Part shown: piece after piece, positions 38,757 through 44,144 of the stretch
Numbering within the stretch: position 1 is the first letter of the stretch
How the letters are laid out: every line of letters starts with the position of its first letter
Origin: an uncultured Lachnospiraceae bacterium
GTDB taxonomy: Bacteria > Bacillota > Clostridia > Lachnospirales > Lachnospiraceae
Assembly (NCBI GenBank): GCA_946405625.1
Contig: CAMJHQ010000028.1
Coordinates: forward strand, 1 to 45,428
DNA: 45,428 nt
Direction of reading: 5' to 3'
The notes under the pieces: generated by a model
What the model was told of the DNA's origin: nothing
What the model saw: only the letters and a program-made list of their open reading frames with translations
The model's database searches: none
Translations under genes and position numbers: made by a program

Positions 38757-39040
38757 AAAAAGTCCCTGCACCGGATTTCTCCGATGCAGGGACGAACTAT
38801 TACTATTCCGTGGTACCACCCTGATTCCGCAGCATATATGAAACTGCGACTCTCATTCAGAAGTTTAACGTTCTCCAACGTCCCAAACTACACAGCATAG
38901 CCTTCATAAGGGAAGCTCCGGTGTGAAAATGATGTATAGCTCAGTCCGACAGGGCTTTCAGCCGGTGACCCCACCTCTCTAATGACGAATAAGGCTTTTA
39001 AAGCCTTTCTATACACTTGTTGCACCATCTCAGCTTATTT
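38757..39040 (-). promoter_or_regulatory. Phenylalanine T-box riboswitch upstream of pheS
   Basis: The minus strand holds the T-box core AGGGTGGTACCACGG (38808-38822), whose TGGT bulge pairs with an uncharged tRNA ending ACCA. A terminator with a 14-base stem (38762-38793) and five T follows. In the Stem I region the TTC at 38925-38927, followed by A and before CACCGGAGC, is the likely specifier codon for phenylalanine, matching the gene it controls. The antiterminator would form with sequence overlapping the left arm of the terminator. Confidence 0.92.
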
Positions 39041-39124: not shown

Positions 39125-39153
39125 TTGACATATTATCAATTTGATAATATGAT
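39125..39153 (+). promoter_or_regulatory. Promoter of the TIR gene with palindromic operator
   Basis: TTGACA (39125-39130), a 17-base spacer and TATGAT (39148-39153). The spacer is almost wholly a perfect inverted repeat, ATATTATCA and TGATAATAT separated by ATT (39130-39150), placed where a bound repressor would block polymerase. It lies about 150 bases before the start codon. Confidence 0.75.
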
Positions 39154-39301
39154 ATGTCTATAAGACTATACAACGGTCATACCATGTAACTAAACTCTTT
39201 TTTAGTCTTACTGTCATTGAAAGGAGCTTTCTTTTTTCATATAATAAGGTATAGGACTTTTTAAGAGTTATTTATTTCTTTAATGTATTGAGGTTAAAAC
39301 T

Positions 39302-42300
39302 ATGATTGATCATTACAATGCATTTATTTCCTACAGACATGCACCTGAAGATATCAAAGTAGCAGAAGCTGTACAGCGGGGTCTTGAGAGATTCCATATC
39401 CCGCATAAGATAAGAAAACAAACAGGCATGAAACGTATTCAGCAGATTTTCCGAGATAAGGATGAACTTCCTATCACAAGTGATCTGACTGATACGATAT
39501 CCAATGCCCTTTATAATTCCGATTATCTGATAGTCATATGTTCTACAAATACCAAGGATTCAATCTGGGTTCAGCGTGAGATTCAATTCTTCCTCCGCAA
39601 TCATACCAAGAATCAGATACTTACGGTTCTCGTTAATGGTGAACCTCAGGATGTTATCCCCGAGATTCTTACATATGAAGATAAGACCGTGATAGATTCT
39701 CAGGGATTATATCAGACCGTAAGAAATCCTATCGAACCGCTGTCATGCGACTACAGAATGCCATTCTCAAAAGCCCGGAAGATTGAACTGCCACGACTTG
39801 CAAGTGCTCTGATCGGGTGTTCTTATGATGAGCTTATGAACAGACGCAGACAGTATATGATCCATCGTATGGAGCTTATATTTGCTTCTATTACTATTGC
39901 TGCGGCCGCTTTTTCTTTCCATTTATATAAGAGCAATCAAGAGATCAAGATGAATTACCTTAATTCTCTCCGCAACCAGTCCAGATATCTTGCAAACGAA
40001 TCAAAGCATCTTCTGGAGGACGAGCAGCGTGTAACCGCGCTTCAGCTGGCTATCGAAGCTCTCCCAAAAGACGAGAATGACGAGCGTCCTGTCACGCCTG
40101 AAGCAATCCGTGCTATTACAGACGCGACTCTTGCATATATGTCGGATAATTCAACTTATAATGTATATTGTGAATGGGGATATCGTCTTCCTGATACAAT
40201 ACAGGAATTTAAGGTTTCTCCTAACGGAAAAGCCTTAGCAGCTTATGACGCTGTCGGTAACCTGGGTGTATGGGATACCGAAACTCATCAGGCTATAGTA
40301 TATGAGCTTTCACGATCAACCAATTCTCGTTCAGGTACTTCCGGCATAGAATTCCTTAGTTCCGGAGATCTTATTATCTGGGGAGAAAAAACCATACGAA
40401 ATATGGATTTTTATTCTGCATCTCCGAAGTGGGTCTATACCTCTGACGTTGATATTTTCGATACGGCAGATCTGCTCGGATACAATTCAGACTATATATA
40501 TCTATCAGGTTCTTCCCCCCAAAACATCATCAAGTTAAGCCTTGCCGACGGAAATCTGGTTGAAAAATACGAACTTCCATATTATGAGGACTCTGAATCT
40601 ACATCTATATTTTCAAGCATCAATAATCCAGTGGTTTCCCCAAATGGAAAATATATTGCTTTTACTTGTTCACCGGAACTCTACAAATATGTGATAGGTG
40701 TATACGATACCGATACCAATAAGGCTATATTCGGGGAAATGAGTGATTCTTATATAACAACCCTTGACTGGCTTGATGATGATAATCTTCTCACATCATC
40801 TTTGGTAGGTAATATGAGTGAACACAGTATGTCTTTCGGAGAAACAGATTATATCTCAACCGACTCGGATATCATACAGTGCTTTTCTCCTGTTGATCTG
40901 AAAGAAAAATGGCATTCTGATTTTACCTGTAATGACACAACAATAAAGGACGGATTCCTCAAGCTGATAAATAACGGTGTATTATATTATTCCGGAAATG
41001 CAGCAACTGTTTATGATCCTAAAACAGGACAGATTCTTCAAAACTATAATGTAAATGACTCTATAGTCAATGTATGTGACCCTAATGAGGACGGTATTCC
41101 TCTCTTTATTCTGAGAAACGGAAATATTGCCATTCCGACTCACGAAGGCAAAAATCTATTACTACAAAAATATTTCCCTGACAATCTTCGTCAAGCCGAA
41201 ATGACTACTTCAGGATATTATACTTTTAAAATACAGAAAAATGAAATACTATACTACGGAACCCATGTATATGACAGAGAATGGACCGAGCTTGACCATA
41301 ATACCGTGTTAACTGATATCGACAATTCTACTATGACTGATGATATTCTCGGCATCATCGAGTCAAGAGACAATAAGCTTTATCTGTATGTTTATGATCT
41401 TAATAACCCGGATACTACAGTTGAAGCACTGATAGACGAAAACCCGGCCAGTACAACAATATATAAGATTATTTACTCTGATAAGGAAAATGTATATGTC
41501 GGGAAAGGAAGTTCGGACGGATTCGAGATTATTACCGTAAGCCGAAAAAACGGTAGTACCTCAACAGAAATCATTTCAGAAGGAGGCTTATTATATTCTC
41601 CTCAATATTCATCCGTTAACGGCATTCTGGTATATCCTGATTTTCCTTCATATGATGAAAAACTCGTTACCTTATATAATATAGAGAGCAAGCTGTCCAA
41701 AAGCTACAAACTTCCTGAAGAATGTGAGGCATTTACTCCAACGTCTCCGGTATATTACCCTGATCAAAATGCCATTATCTATTGTGATTCAAACAATACA
41801 TTTATAATAAATACTTCAACCGAAGATGTTGCAACAATGGATAAACCTGAAGAATGGGAGGGCACAAATCTGATTTCCCAAAACGCATTAGATGGAAAAT
41901 ATCTTCTTTCTGACGGAAATAAGACCATTGTCACAACAGCAGACGGTAAAATCGAATATACAATAAATCCAATAGGATATCGTGTTCTTGGATTAGCATT
42001 TTATGATGACGGAATTGATAAAACTGAAGACCAGATTCTCATAGTCTACAATAATGGAACTCTATACCGGTATTCGGCTGTAGACGGACATTTTCTGGGT
42101 AAATCGGAGCTGTTGCTGTACAAAACTTATGTTTCCGACCATAAATATGATTTTGAATTTGATAACGAGAATCACCTTCTCTACTTCACATCAGATAAAA
42201 GTCTCAGCATGATAGATACCGAATACTGGGTAGAGACTGCAGCGATTCCTTTTTGTATCGGACATCATAAACCGACCGACCGATTCATTACAACTTCTAT

Positions 42301-42442
42301 TGATAATCAAAATCAATACAGAATAGGGTGCTTCGAACACTATACAACCGATAAGCTTATAGAAAAGGGACTGGATCTGCTTCAGGGTTCAGAACTATCT
42401 CCCGAACAAAAATCAGAATATGGAATAGCAGAAGATAATTAA
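39302..42442 (+). CDS. TIR-transmembrane-beta-propeller protein
   Basis: A 1046-residue protein. Residues about 3-130 form a TIR domain (YNAFISYRHAPED at strand A, IFRDKDELP, NSDYLIVICS, and Glu93 in WVQREIQFF, where NADase TIRs carry the catalytic Glu). A linker (130-185) ends in RRR, followed by a single transmembrane helix at about 191-209. A polar helical region at about 210-285 precedes some 750 residues of beta-rich WD40/quinoprotein-like propeller sequence with repeated VSPNGK and NGxLYRY motifs. By the positive-inside rule the TIR domain faces the cytoplasm and the propeller the outside, as in a receptor. It has its own operator-bearing promoter and a terminator, and no partner gene. 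GAGG nine bases upstream supports the ATG. It is more AT-rich than its neighbours. Confidence 0.85.
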   Translation: MIDHYNAFISYRHAPEDIKVAEAVQRGLERFHIPHKIRKQTGMKRIQQIFRDKDELPITSDLTDTISNALYNSDYLIVICSTNTKDSIWVQREIQFFLRNHTKNQILTVLVNGEPQDVIPEILTYEDKTVIDSQGLYQTVRNPIEPLSCDYRMPFSKARKIELPRLASALIGCSYDELMNRRRQYMIHRMELIFASITIAAAAFSFHLYKSNQEIKMNYLNSLRNQSRYLANESKHLLEDEQRVTALQLAIEALPKDENDERPVTPEAIRAITDATLAYMSDNSTYNVYCEWGYRLPDTIQEFKVSPNGKALAAYDAVGNLGVWDTETHQAIVYELSRSTNSRSGTSGIEFLSSGDLIIWGEKTIRNMDFYSASPKWVYTSDVDIFDTADLLGYNSDYIYLSGSSPQNIIKLSLADGNLVEKYELPYYEDSESTSIFSSINNPVVSPNGKYIAFTCSPELYKYVIGVYDTDTNKAIFGEMSDSYITTLDWLDDDNLLTSSLVGNMSEHSMSFGETDYISTDSDIIQCFSPVDLKEKWHSDFTCNDTTIKDGFLKLINNGVLYYSGNAATVYDPKTGQILQNYNVNDSIVNVCDPNEDGIPLFILRNGNIAIPTHEGKNLLLQKYFPDNLRQAEMTTSGYYTFKIQKNEILYYGTHVYDREWTELDHNTVLTDIDNSTMTDDILGIIESRDNKLYLYVYDLNNPDTTVEALIDENPASTTIYKIIYSDKENVYVGKGSSDGFEIITVSRKNGSTSTEIISEGGLLYSPQYSSVNGILVYPDFPSYDEKLVTLYNIESKLSKSYKLPEECEAFTPTSPVYYPDQNAIIYCDSNNTFIINTSTEDVATMDKPEEWEGTNLISQNALDGKYLLSDGNKTIVTTADGKIEYTINPIGYRVLGLAFYDDGIDKTEDQILIVYNNGTLYRYSAVDGHFLGKSELLLYKTYVSDHKYDFEFDNENHLLYFTSDKSLSMIDTEYWVETAAIPFCIGHHKPTDRFITTSIDNQNQYRIGCFEHYTTDKLIEKGLDLLQGSELSPEQKSEYGIAEDN

Positions 42443-42492: not shown

Positions 42493-42535
42493 AAAACACC
42501 GTACAAAACTTCATATCGGTTTTGTACGGTGTTTT
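42493..42535. terminator. Bidirectional terminator between the TIR and DHH genes
   Basis: A perfect 17-bp stem (AAAACACCGTACAAAAC / GTTTTGTACGGTGTTTT) with a nine-base loop, T-rich in both orientations, between convergent genes. Confidence 0.93.
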
Positions 42536-42562: not shown

Positions 42563-44071
42563 CTATGAATCGATTTCTTTATAAAGCTGATCAAAGAATC
42601 TTCCGTTGATTATATAAATATCATGTATATCATCTTCTCTGACCGCTATATAATCTCCCGGGGCACCCGAATAATATTTCTCATCATTCCAGGTAGTAAA
42701 CAGCTTTATATATCTATCGAGCGGTTTCGCATAAATCCTGGTTCTTCCTGAGCTTATAACACCATGAGCCACAGACATTACATTTTTCTTTTCATCTGTG
42801 AAAAGATTCCTGATGCTCGGTTCATACTCGAAATTTCTGCTGTACGGCTTACCCGTCGGAATATAGCTCTTTTCAAGCTTCTCCTTGGTTATCGGATAAA
42901 CTTCCCCTTCGATTCCGATCATCAGATATTTATCATCATCCAGTCGTAAGCTCACATCCCCTTCAAGAGTCCTGATCTCTACCATCGTATTAAGAGGAAA
43001 TACATCAGTAAGCTTAACATATCCGAGTTCCTGCGGCTGCTTCTCATATTTCTTCATAGTAGAAATATCAAGCTCAGCATCCTTCGCATATATTATTTCA
43101 TACTTATCATAATACTCTTCAATTCTTCTGACAAAAAGGTCATTTATCGATTTAAAGTCATAGCTGACACCTATACTTTCAAGCTTATCAGGATATACAG
43201 CTCCACCGGCCTTCTTCAAATGTCCGCCGCCTCCTCCGATCTTATCAGCAAGACATGCTGCCAGCTCATTTGCATGGACCTCTCTGACACAGCTTCTGAC
43301 AGAAAATTTAAGCTCTTCAGGACTTATATAGAAAGCCACACAGACATCTACTCCCGATGTTTCCATAGAGAAGTCACTTATAACTCCCAGAATATTAGGA
43401 TCACATTTTTCTGCATGTATAATAAGGCATCTGTTCTTCGAATAGTAATCATAATCAAGTATTGCTCTTCCGGTAATTTTAAGTTCTTCAAGAGAAATGT
43501 TTGAATTACTCATTTCGGTAACAATACTCATGCTTATATCAAGCACTTCAATCATATCTCTGTCGAGCGGATGATTCATCTCAGAAAGGCGTGCCGTATC
43601 TGTATAGAGGCCGTAATAAAGCGCCGTTGAAAGCAGTTTATCCTCATTAACCTGCAGTCCTTCGGATCTTATCATATCCCATACGACCGTTGCACAGCTT
43701 CCTACCGTACTTCTGATTTCCGAAAGTTCAGTCAGCTCTTCTATAACCTGATGATGATCTATCACCGCAACGGTTCCCGCCTCGGTCTTTGTAACATTAG
43801 ACTGTCCATACTGACAATCCACTACCACGAGCAGCTCCGGCTTCTCATAGAAATTCGGTGCATAATCGACCGGAACCTCAAGTGCACTGATCATCATAAG
43901 AAGATTGCTTTTCTGAATCTCGTTCATTCCTCGATAAATAAACTTCGGATTTTTCCCCATTTTCTCCAAATACCAGTAAACTCCATATCCTGAAGCAAGT
44001 GCATCAGCATCCGGATTGTCATGGCACTGGATAACAATATCATCATATTTCAGAAGTTCATTAAGTTTCAT
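42563..44071 (-). CDS. DHH/DHHA1-family phosphoesterase with extra C-terminal region
   Basis: A 502-residue protein. The DHH domain has HDNPDADALASG, VVVDCQYGQ and VIDHHQV; the DHHA1 domain has GGGGGHLKKAGG. Such NrnA/GdpP-like enzymes hydrolyse short oligonucleotides, pAp or cyclic dinucleotides; which applies here cannot be told. Beyond about residue 340 is an additional region of some 160 residues with two similar blocks (EGEVYPITKEKLEKSYIP, and PGDYIAVREDD followed by YIINGRFFDQLY), which looks like two copies of a small PGDYI-type module seen in unrelated proteins. It has its own promoter (44116-44144). It ends convergently with the TIR gene. Confidence 0.88.
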   Translation of the reverse strand: MKLNELLKYDDIVIQCHDNPDADALASGYGVYWYLEKMGKNPKFIYRGMNEIQKSNLLMMISALEVPVDYAPNFYEKPELLVVVDCQYGQSNVTKTEAGTVAVIDHHQVIEELTELSEIRSTVGSCATVVWDMIRSEGLQVNEDKLLSTALYYGLYTDTARLSEMNHPLDRDMIEVLDISMSIVTEMSNSNISLEELKITGRAILDYDYYSKNRCLIIHAEKCDPNILGVISDFSMETSGVDVCVAFYISPEELKFSVRSCVREVHANELAACLADKIGGGGGHLKKAGGAVYPDKLESIGVSYDFKSINDLFVRRIEEYYDKYEIIYAKDAELDISTMKKYEKQPQELGYVKLTDVFPLNTMVEIRTLEGDVSLRLDDDKYLMIGIEGEVYPITKEKLEKSYIPTGKPYSRNFEYEPSIRNLFTDEKKNVMSVAHGVISSGRTRIYAKPLDRYIKLFTTWNDEKYYSGAPGDYIAVREDDIHDIYIINGRFFDQLYKEIDS

Positions 44072-44115: not shown

Positions 44116-44144
44116 ATTTTACTATATGCGTATCCCCGTGTCAA
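44116..44144 (-). promoter_or_regulatory. Putative promoter of the DHH gene
   Basis: TTGACA (44139-44144), a 17-base spacer and TAAAAT (44116-44121) on the minus strand, about 45 bases before the ATG at 44071. Confidence 0.65.

Follow-up and report, generated by a model that had tools for sequence, protein, structure and literature searches.

A membrane TIR-propeller protein and a linked DHH phosphoesterase as a possible two-gene signalling module in Lachnospiraceae

The TIR receptor gene and its phosphoesterase neighbour

The window analysed here, positions 1 to 45,428 of contig CAMJHQ010000028.1 (forward strand) of assembly GCA_946405625.1 from an uncultured Lachnospiraceae bacterium of the gut or rumen, contains a gene for a TIR receptor-like protein that converges on a gene for a DHH-type phosphoesterase. 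The TIR gene (39302..42442, forward strand, ATG start) encodes 1046 amino acids combining a TIR domain, a transmembrane segment and beta-propellers, as read from the open reading frame, Pfam, a structural model and 1355 homologues. The partner gene (42563..44071, minus strand) encodes a 502-amino-acid DHH/DHHA1 phosphoesterase with a C-terminal PGDYG-like domain. Comparison across related loci shows that the linkage of the two genes extends over many species, has persisted while their arrangement changed, and includes several types of membrane TIR protein. By Pfam, the neighbours of the TIR gene in the window are the DHH/DHHA1 gene, a Mem_trans transporter gene and PheS. That an enzyme-type TIR domain, a transmembrane helix and a large sensor-like C-terminal part share one chain, as had been proposed from the DNA letters in an earlier reading (the original prediction), is supported by the results below.

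The TIR domain occupies residues 1-155 (39302..39766, forward strand) and is matched by Pfam TIR_2 over residues 8-132 (42 bits, cut-off 28) and also by ThsB_TIR (36 bits, cut-off 21.2). A protein search at E <= 0.001 returned 1355 relatives, of which the 120 best (99-100% query coverage, 38-98% identity) were aligned with the window protein to give 121 rows (alignment A1). Glu93, whose codon lies at 39578-39580 (forward strand) within the TIR domain, is invariant in all 121 rows, together with Trp89, Ser87, Cys80, Arg51 and Asp52, and the earlier placement of Glu93 at the position used by NAD+-cleaving enzymes (NADases) is borne out. A profile built from 34 TIR domains recovers solved TIR structures and aligns Glu93 with the WxxxE glutamate of 7uxr and Roq1. 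Conservation and alignment together favour NADase-type catalysis, short of proof. Bacterial TIR domains of this type are often NADases acting in defence.

Downstream of the TIR domain, an RRR motif (residues 181-183) precedes the predicted transmembrane segment (residues 190-208; both within 39842..39925, forward strand), as originally described. Residues 190-208 form the most hydrophobic 19-residue stretch of the window protein (mean hydropathy 1.65), and the corresponding stretch starts at 175-230 in 115 of the 121 rows and elsewhere in six. In a whole-chain AlphaFold2 model with a mean predicted local distance difference test score (pLDDT) of 89.4, a single long helix, residues 175-239, spans the hydrophobic segment; burial of residues 191-209 in a soluble fold, named earlier as the outcome that would contradict a receptor, is not seen in this model. 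Conserved juxtamembrane helices follow (residues 213-284; 39938..40153, forward strand), and then the propeller region. The first propeller, at about residues 285-655 (40154..41266, forward strand), is matched by structure comparison, and a probable second one, at about residues 656-1014 (41267..42343, forward strand), is read from model strands and long Foldseek alignments. The propeller fold predicted for the C-terminus thus stands, apparently as two tandem beta-propellers. Mean pairwise identity falls from 74% in the TIR domain and 70% in the juxtamembrane helices to 40% and 33% in the first and second propellers, the latter being the most variable part of the protein, as for a conserved enzyme under a diversifying sensor.

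With respect to topology, the N-terminal side of the transmembrane segment is more basic than the C-terminal side in 121 of 121 rows. The net acid fraction of the part beyond the segment is 0.078, versus 0.069 in an exported-like set (n=52) and 0.034 in a cytosolic-like set (n=231), both taken from the same loci and split by a crude hydropathy rule; 44% of the exported-like set and 3% of the cytosolic-like set are equally acidic. The sequence trends and the model support, but do not prove, a cytoplasmic TIR domain (N-in) with propellers outside the cell (C-out).

The catalytic part of the partner (43175..44071, minus strand) consists of DHH (residues 12-154; 55.3 bits, cut-off 28.1) and DHHA1 (residues 221-299; 32.2 bits, cut-off 25.9) in Pfam. 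In a count covering 67 of 74 rows, and gaps aside, H17, D21, D23, D85, Q87, D105-H106-H107, D158, T159 and the GGGGH motif at 280-284 are invariant, and N19 is kept in 60 of 61; the residues of the metal site are conserved. Solved relatives of this part include exopolyphosphatase-like, Mn pyrophosphatase, TmPDE and NrnA chains, and the NCBIfam equivalog cut-offs for NrnA, RecJ and Mn-pyrophosphatase are not reached (best 42.6 bits versus 283). Since the DHH superfamily cuts phosphodiester and phosphoanhydride bonds, it is possible, by analogy, that the DHH part cuts an ADP-ribose-type messenger at its diphosphate. A DHH/DHHA1 member degrading the type III CRISPR messenger was reportedly described by Zhao in 2020. 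The C-terminal domain (residues 300-502; 42566..43174, minus strand) is modelled as mostly beta with a pLDDT of 89.4.

Gene linkage, related architectures and flanking elements

The TIR gene had been described as stand-alone, a view that did not survive comparison of its relatives' neighbourhoods. A DHH gene adjoins the TIR gene in 77 of 92 loci (recognised through clusters of open reading frames in 74 and through tblastn in L007, L069 and L078) and, once duplicates are removed, in 70 of 83 distinct loci; two of the remaining 13 end at a contig edge and 11 lack the DHH gene. Eubacterium ruminantium ATCC 17233 (L054) is one of the relatives with both genes. The second most frequent neighbour occurs in only 13 of the 92 loci. 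Among the 74 loci, the DHH gene lies convergently downstream in 44 (median gap 59 bp) and directly upstream on the same strand in 30 (median gap -1 bp). On a tree of 81 of the 92 rows (nine duplicates and two short proteins were left out), these arrangements switched at least three times, or nine times when absence is counted as a change.

Within the genus, at a threshold of E <= 1e-20, 55 of the 61 genomes, among them 28 of the 31 good ones, have the TIR protein, with a single match in 36 of the 55; the DHH protein is present in 54, again including 28 of the good ones. Both genes are present in 54 genomes and neither in six; one genome has the TIR gene only, its match beginning at base 7 of a contig (G019), and none has the DHH gene only. 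The two matches lie no more than 600 bp apart in 50 of the 54 genomes, the exceptions being G012, where they share a contig about 620 bp apart, and G022, G024 and G055, where they are on separate contigs. At the family level the TIR protein was found in 37 of 298 genomes, so that a pair near-core in the genus is sparse across the family. A class-level sample of 393 genomes contained the TIR gene in 39, full-length DHH in 32 (a count omitting the short match in G151) and both in 27; the Fisher value of 1.6e-27 is descriptive, as kinship is ignored. In this sample, 18 of 36 DHH genes are adjacent to a TIR gene.

Viewed from the phosphoesterase side, the family sample, counting the window, contains 47 full-length DHH genes, and a TIR_2 domain lies no more than 4.5 kb from 26 of them, in one case (G280) two genes off. 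Partial or split matches are excluded from the 47, including G304, whose whole gene is in L117, as well as G342 and G134; in G134 the C-terminal piece adjoins a TIR gene. The accompanying TIR protein also varies: the DHH gene stands next to a TIR-transmembrane-DUF6273 protein in L101 and L107, and next to a TIR protein with three hydrophobic segments in L099. A further TIR-DUF6273 and DHH pair, its transmembrane segment seen by eye, occurs in L143. The phosphoesterase therefore accompanies membrane TIR proteins with differing C-terminal parts. The L143 record (MT836910.1), a fecal scaffold, and L144 (MT836060.1) are labelled Bacteriophage (unverified), and their gene content looks bacterial-chromosomal.

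Among the matches listed, the C-terminal domain of the partner is also present at five places that lack the DHH catalytic part (L112-L116), and each of these gene rows includes a TIR_2 gene above cut-off. All five rows (L112:4519-8782, L113:5090-9909, L114:5786-10306, L115:1799-5935 and L116:5432-9822) follow the order GAF(-GGDEF)-like, TIR, REC-guanylate-cyclase-type and PGDYG-like protein, the last two being fused in L112; Pfam annotation of the rows covers L113 and parts of L112 and L115. They appear to form a second TIR-linked nucleotide-signalling cluster.

Additional neighbourhoods were recorded around both genes. The DHH-PGDYG-like protein is fused to a HAD phosphatase (Pfam) in L117:4449-6794 and L144:3957-6179, as if the DHH product were a phosphomonoester, and these fused genes lie beside shikimate-pathway-like genes (by eye). 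Full-length DHH relatives lacking a TIR gene (L092, L109, L110 and L111) adjoin genes resembling AICAR formyltransferase/IMP cyclohydrolase (by eye). A TIR-propeller gene lacking a DHH neighbour (L041:1602-6554) lies between an HD-REC protein (Pfam), another phosphodiesterase-type neighbour, and a response-regulator-like gene (by eye). In each of two genomes three TIR_2 genes are clustered, with open frames of 770-1043 amino acids (G015:C31:202816-209743 and G210:C9:30655-41315). On a Butyrivibrio plasmid (L145, NZ_CP146964.1), a TIR gene with 45% TIR identity lies two genes before an EAL-domain gene, and no DHH gene is annotated in the 12.5 kb covered.

As for the flanks of the window genes, a hairpin at 42493..42535 (-24.3 kcal/mol, z -8.8) lies between the convergent genes and can serve both as a possible bidirectional terminator, because its 18-bp stem is symmetric and the genes converge on it. 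Two promoter-like sites precede the TIR gene on the forward strand, TTGAAA-17-TATAAT at 39217..39245 and another at 39125-39153, each matching 11 of 12 consensus positions; they are weak evidence, because the scan found 46 such sites versus 27.5 expected. An equally weak consensus match, TTGACA-17-TAAAAT (44116..44144, minus strand), precedes the DHH gene. Of the promoter and terminator claimed earlier for the TIR gene alone, the former is thus weakly indicated and the latter can be shared with the neighbour. Elsewhere in the window, the minus strand upstream of pheS (38762-39040) carries what we take to be a T-box-like leader, GGGTGGTACCACG followed by a terminator-like hairpin; no Rfam family matched this leader at its gathering score.

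Relation to known systems

The closest precedent is Thoeris, likewise a two-gene unit whose TIR protein may make an ADP-ribose-type signal, and ThsB_TIR exceeds its Pfam cut-off here. The PADLOC ThsB models match the TIR protein weakly (best E 3.7e-5, residues 7-105). Unlike ThsB, a separate soluble protein, the present TIR domain is fused to a transmembrane segment and propellers, its partner is a DHH phosphoesterase rather than a ThsA-type effector, and the gene is found in most genomes of the genus. ThsA is not among the five PADLOC families matched (E <= 1e-10) in 135 neighbour proteins of the relatives, nor among the window neighbours.

The catalytic half of the partner resembles the solved chains of NrnA/TmPDE-type DHH/DHHA1 enzymes, from which the protein differs by its additional C-terminal domain and its linkage to TIR genes. 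In the part available of one account (PMC7824862), DHH phosphodiesterases are described as handling diverse cyclic linkages, and a DHH-DHHA1 nuclease degrading a type III CRISPR messenger is cited. As for TIR products, the available text of PMC13232231 terms the 2' and 3' forms of cyclic ADP-ribose (2'cADPR and 3'cADPR) exceptionally stable, with no degradation mechanism known before the phage protein RyDEP, a glycosidase of helical RyR fold (PF02026) that degrades these TIR-made messengers. Such degradation would be a putative role of the DHH partner, which differs in being bacterial and in joining DHH to a mostly-beta domain.

With the animal Toll-like receptors, the window protein shares a predicted single-pass design that works with a sensor outside and a TIR domain inside. 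The chain order is reversed and propellers take the place of leucine-rich repeats; no common descent is claimed. According to the available part of PMC9092222, variants of cADPR are produced in vitro by TIR proteins from gut Clostridia such as Roseburia and Dorea. TIR domains in other settings are described in PMC7159879, PMC9503650 and PMC7075850, whose available portions contain no description of a TIR/DHH pair. The single parts of the locus are ordinary, and their pairing is apparently new.

A tentative signalling module and its rivals

The reading preferred here, held at slightly below even confidence, is that the TIR protein works together with the convergent DHH phosphoesterase as a two-gene transmembrane signalling module, the phosphoesterase reading and ending, or effecting, the signal. 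The fast-evolving propellers would sense an outside ligand or surface change, and the cue would be relayed through the continuous helix 175-239, bringing TIR domains together. The assembled TIR domains might then switch on cleavage or cyclisation of NAD+ to yield an ADP-ribose-type nucleotide, which the PGDYG-like domain would bind and the DHH/DHHA1 part would cut. The phosphoesterase would thereby act on the TIR product, as reader and off-switch, or as effector, of the TIR signal.

Several observations weigh against this module. In the comparison with solved TIR structures proposed earlier, the WxxxE glutamate of TLR6, which to our knowledge is not regarded as an NADase, aligns with Glu93 just as those of 7uxr and Roq1 do; the alignment is therefore support and no proof of catalysis, and the shared glutamate makes the signalling module slightly less likely and a purely adaptor-like TIR domain slightly more likely. 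Catalysis by either protein is predicted from sequence signatures and the model. The TIR proteins of L099, L101 and L107 lack the WxxxE tryptophan, and a comparable glutamate was placed by eye only. The propeller cysteine content of 1.25% fits an inside or an outside location alike. The PGDYG assignment is weak: in an alignment of the window row with those of 61 of 73 loci (A2, leaving out three odd-length loci and nine genome-search loci, most of them duplicates), PGDYG (PF14083) matches four of 62 rows, the strongest at E 0.0098, the window row has only a Phage_30_8 match below cut-off and no PGDYG match, and the C-domain of L115 scores 17.4 bits versus a gathering score of 27. With Foldseek, PGDYG-named viral models reach only E of about 0.05, other viral proteins match down to E 3.6e-9, and the best PDB match has E 0.11. 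The known degrader of 2'/3'cADPR is a glycosidase of a different fold (RyR; available text of PMC13232231). Finally, linkage is incomplete: the 11 of 83 loci with no DHH gene beside the TIR gene include six from one clade, 12 of the 39 class-sample genomes with a TIR gene have no full-length DHH, and the family sample includes 21 full-length DHH genes, of 47, for which no TIR_2 domain lies within 4.5 kb, which indicates that the phosphoesterase has a role independent of TIR proteins.

Among the alternatives, an anti-phage or anti-competitor suicide switch, in which surface attack is detected, the TIR domain destroys NAD+ and growth stops, with the phosphoesterase as safety catch or means of recovery, is judged unlikely. 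The established defensive role of bacterial TIR NADases, the weak ThsB match, propellers evolving fast enough to suit an arms race (33-40% identity versus 74% in the TIR domain), the patchy distribution in the family and a partner that could be an antidote all speak for it. Against these stand the presence of the gene, mostly as a single match, throughout nearly all of the genus, the lack of any third gene common to more than 13 of 92 loci, only six PADLOC member matches (E <= 1e-10) among the 135 neighbour proteins, and the absence of a TIR-domain match in 50,697 phage records; plasmid records yielded 14. Because the DHH neighbour recurs in 70 of 83 loci, the TIR gene is carried by 55 of the 61 genomes of the genus and defence-like neighbours are few, a signalling pair fits better than a suicide NADase, and the earlier leaning towards anti-phage NAD+ consumption finds no support. 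It is quite unlikely, in our estimate, that the pairing is metabolic, with the DHH protein clearing nucleotides from TIR-driven NAD+ turnover into purine salvage. The main evidence for this is the purine-type genes beside the TIR-less DHH relatives, and the HAD fusions would be expected if the product were a phosphomonoester; such a pairing leaves unexplained, however, the transmembrane helix and large variable C-terminal part, and the DHH-free C-domain beside TIR, GGDEF and cyclase genes.

The TIR domain may instead serve as an adaptor: once activated, it would assemble and then recruit or switch the phosphoesterase, and TIR catalysis would be irrelevant. Animal TIR domains are established assembly modules, TLR6 has the same glutamate, and gene adjacency suits a physical complex equally well; the six residues invariant in all 121 rows exceed what an adaptor would apparently need, and this explanation is considered improbable. 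A chance neighbourhood, in which a single TIR insertion beside a housekeeping DHH gene was kept by descent, would suit the origin of the titled loci, all from related Clostridia, and the occurrence of the DHH gene alone elsewhere. Adjacency has nevertheless outlasted the repeated changes of arrangement, differing TIR architectures recur next to the DHH gene, and both genes are jointly absent from six of 61 genus genomes, making coincidence highly improbable.

Returning to the signalling module, a wider and more doubtful proposal is that it represents a bacterial counterpart of Toll-receptor signalling, in which propellers or DUF6273 parts would sense outside the cell, a single-pass TIR enzyme would make an ADP-ribose-type messenger, and a dedicated, host-encoded reader and eraser would respond to it. 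On that view the messenger would be bound by a new kind of module, the PGDYG-like domain, and a host enzyme, the DHH part, would end the TIR signal, in the service of regulation, not suicide. A phosphoesterase gene of the host that is linked to TIR genes offers a concrete candidate for reading or ending TIR signals. If the proposal is true, TIR signalling would reach beyond suicide-type immunity and include the sensing of outside cues by gut and rumen bacteria, and the PGDYG-like domain would gain a specific, testable job.

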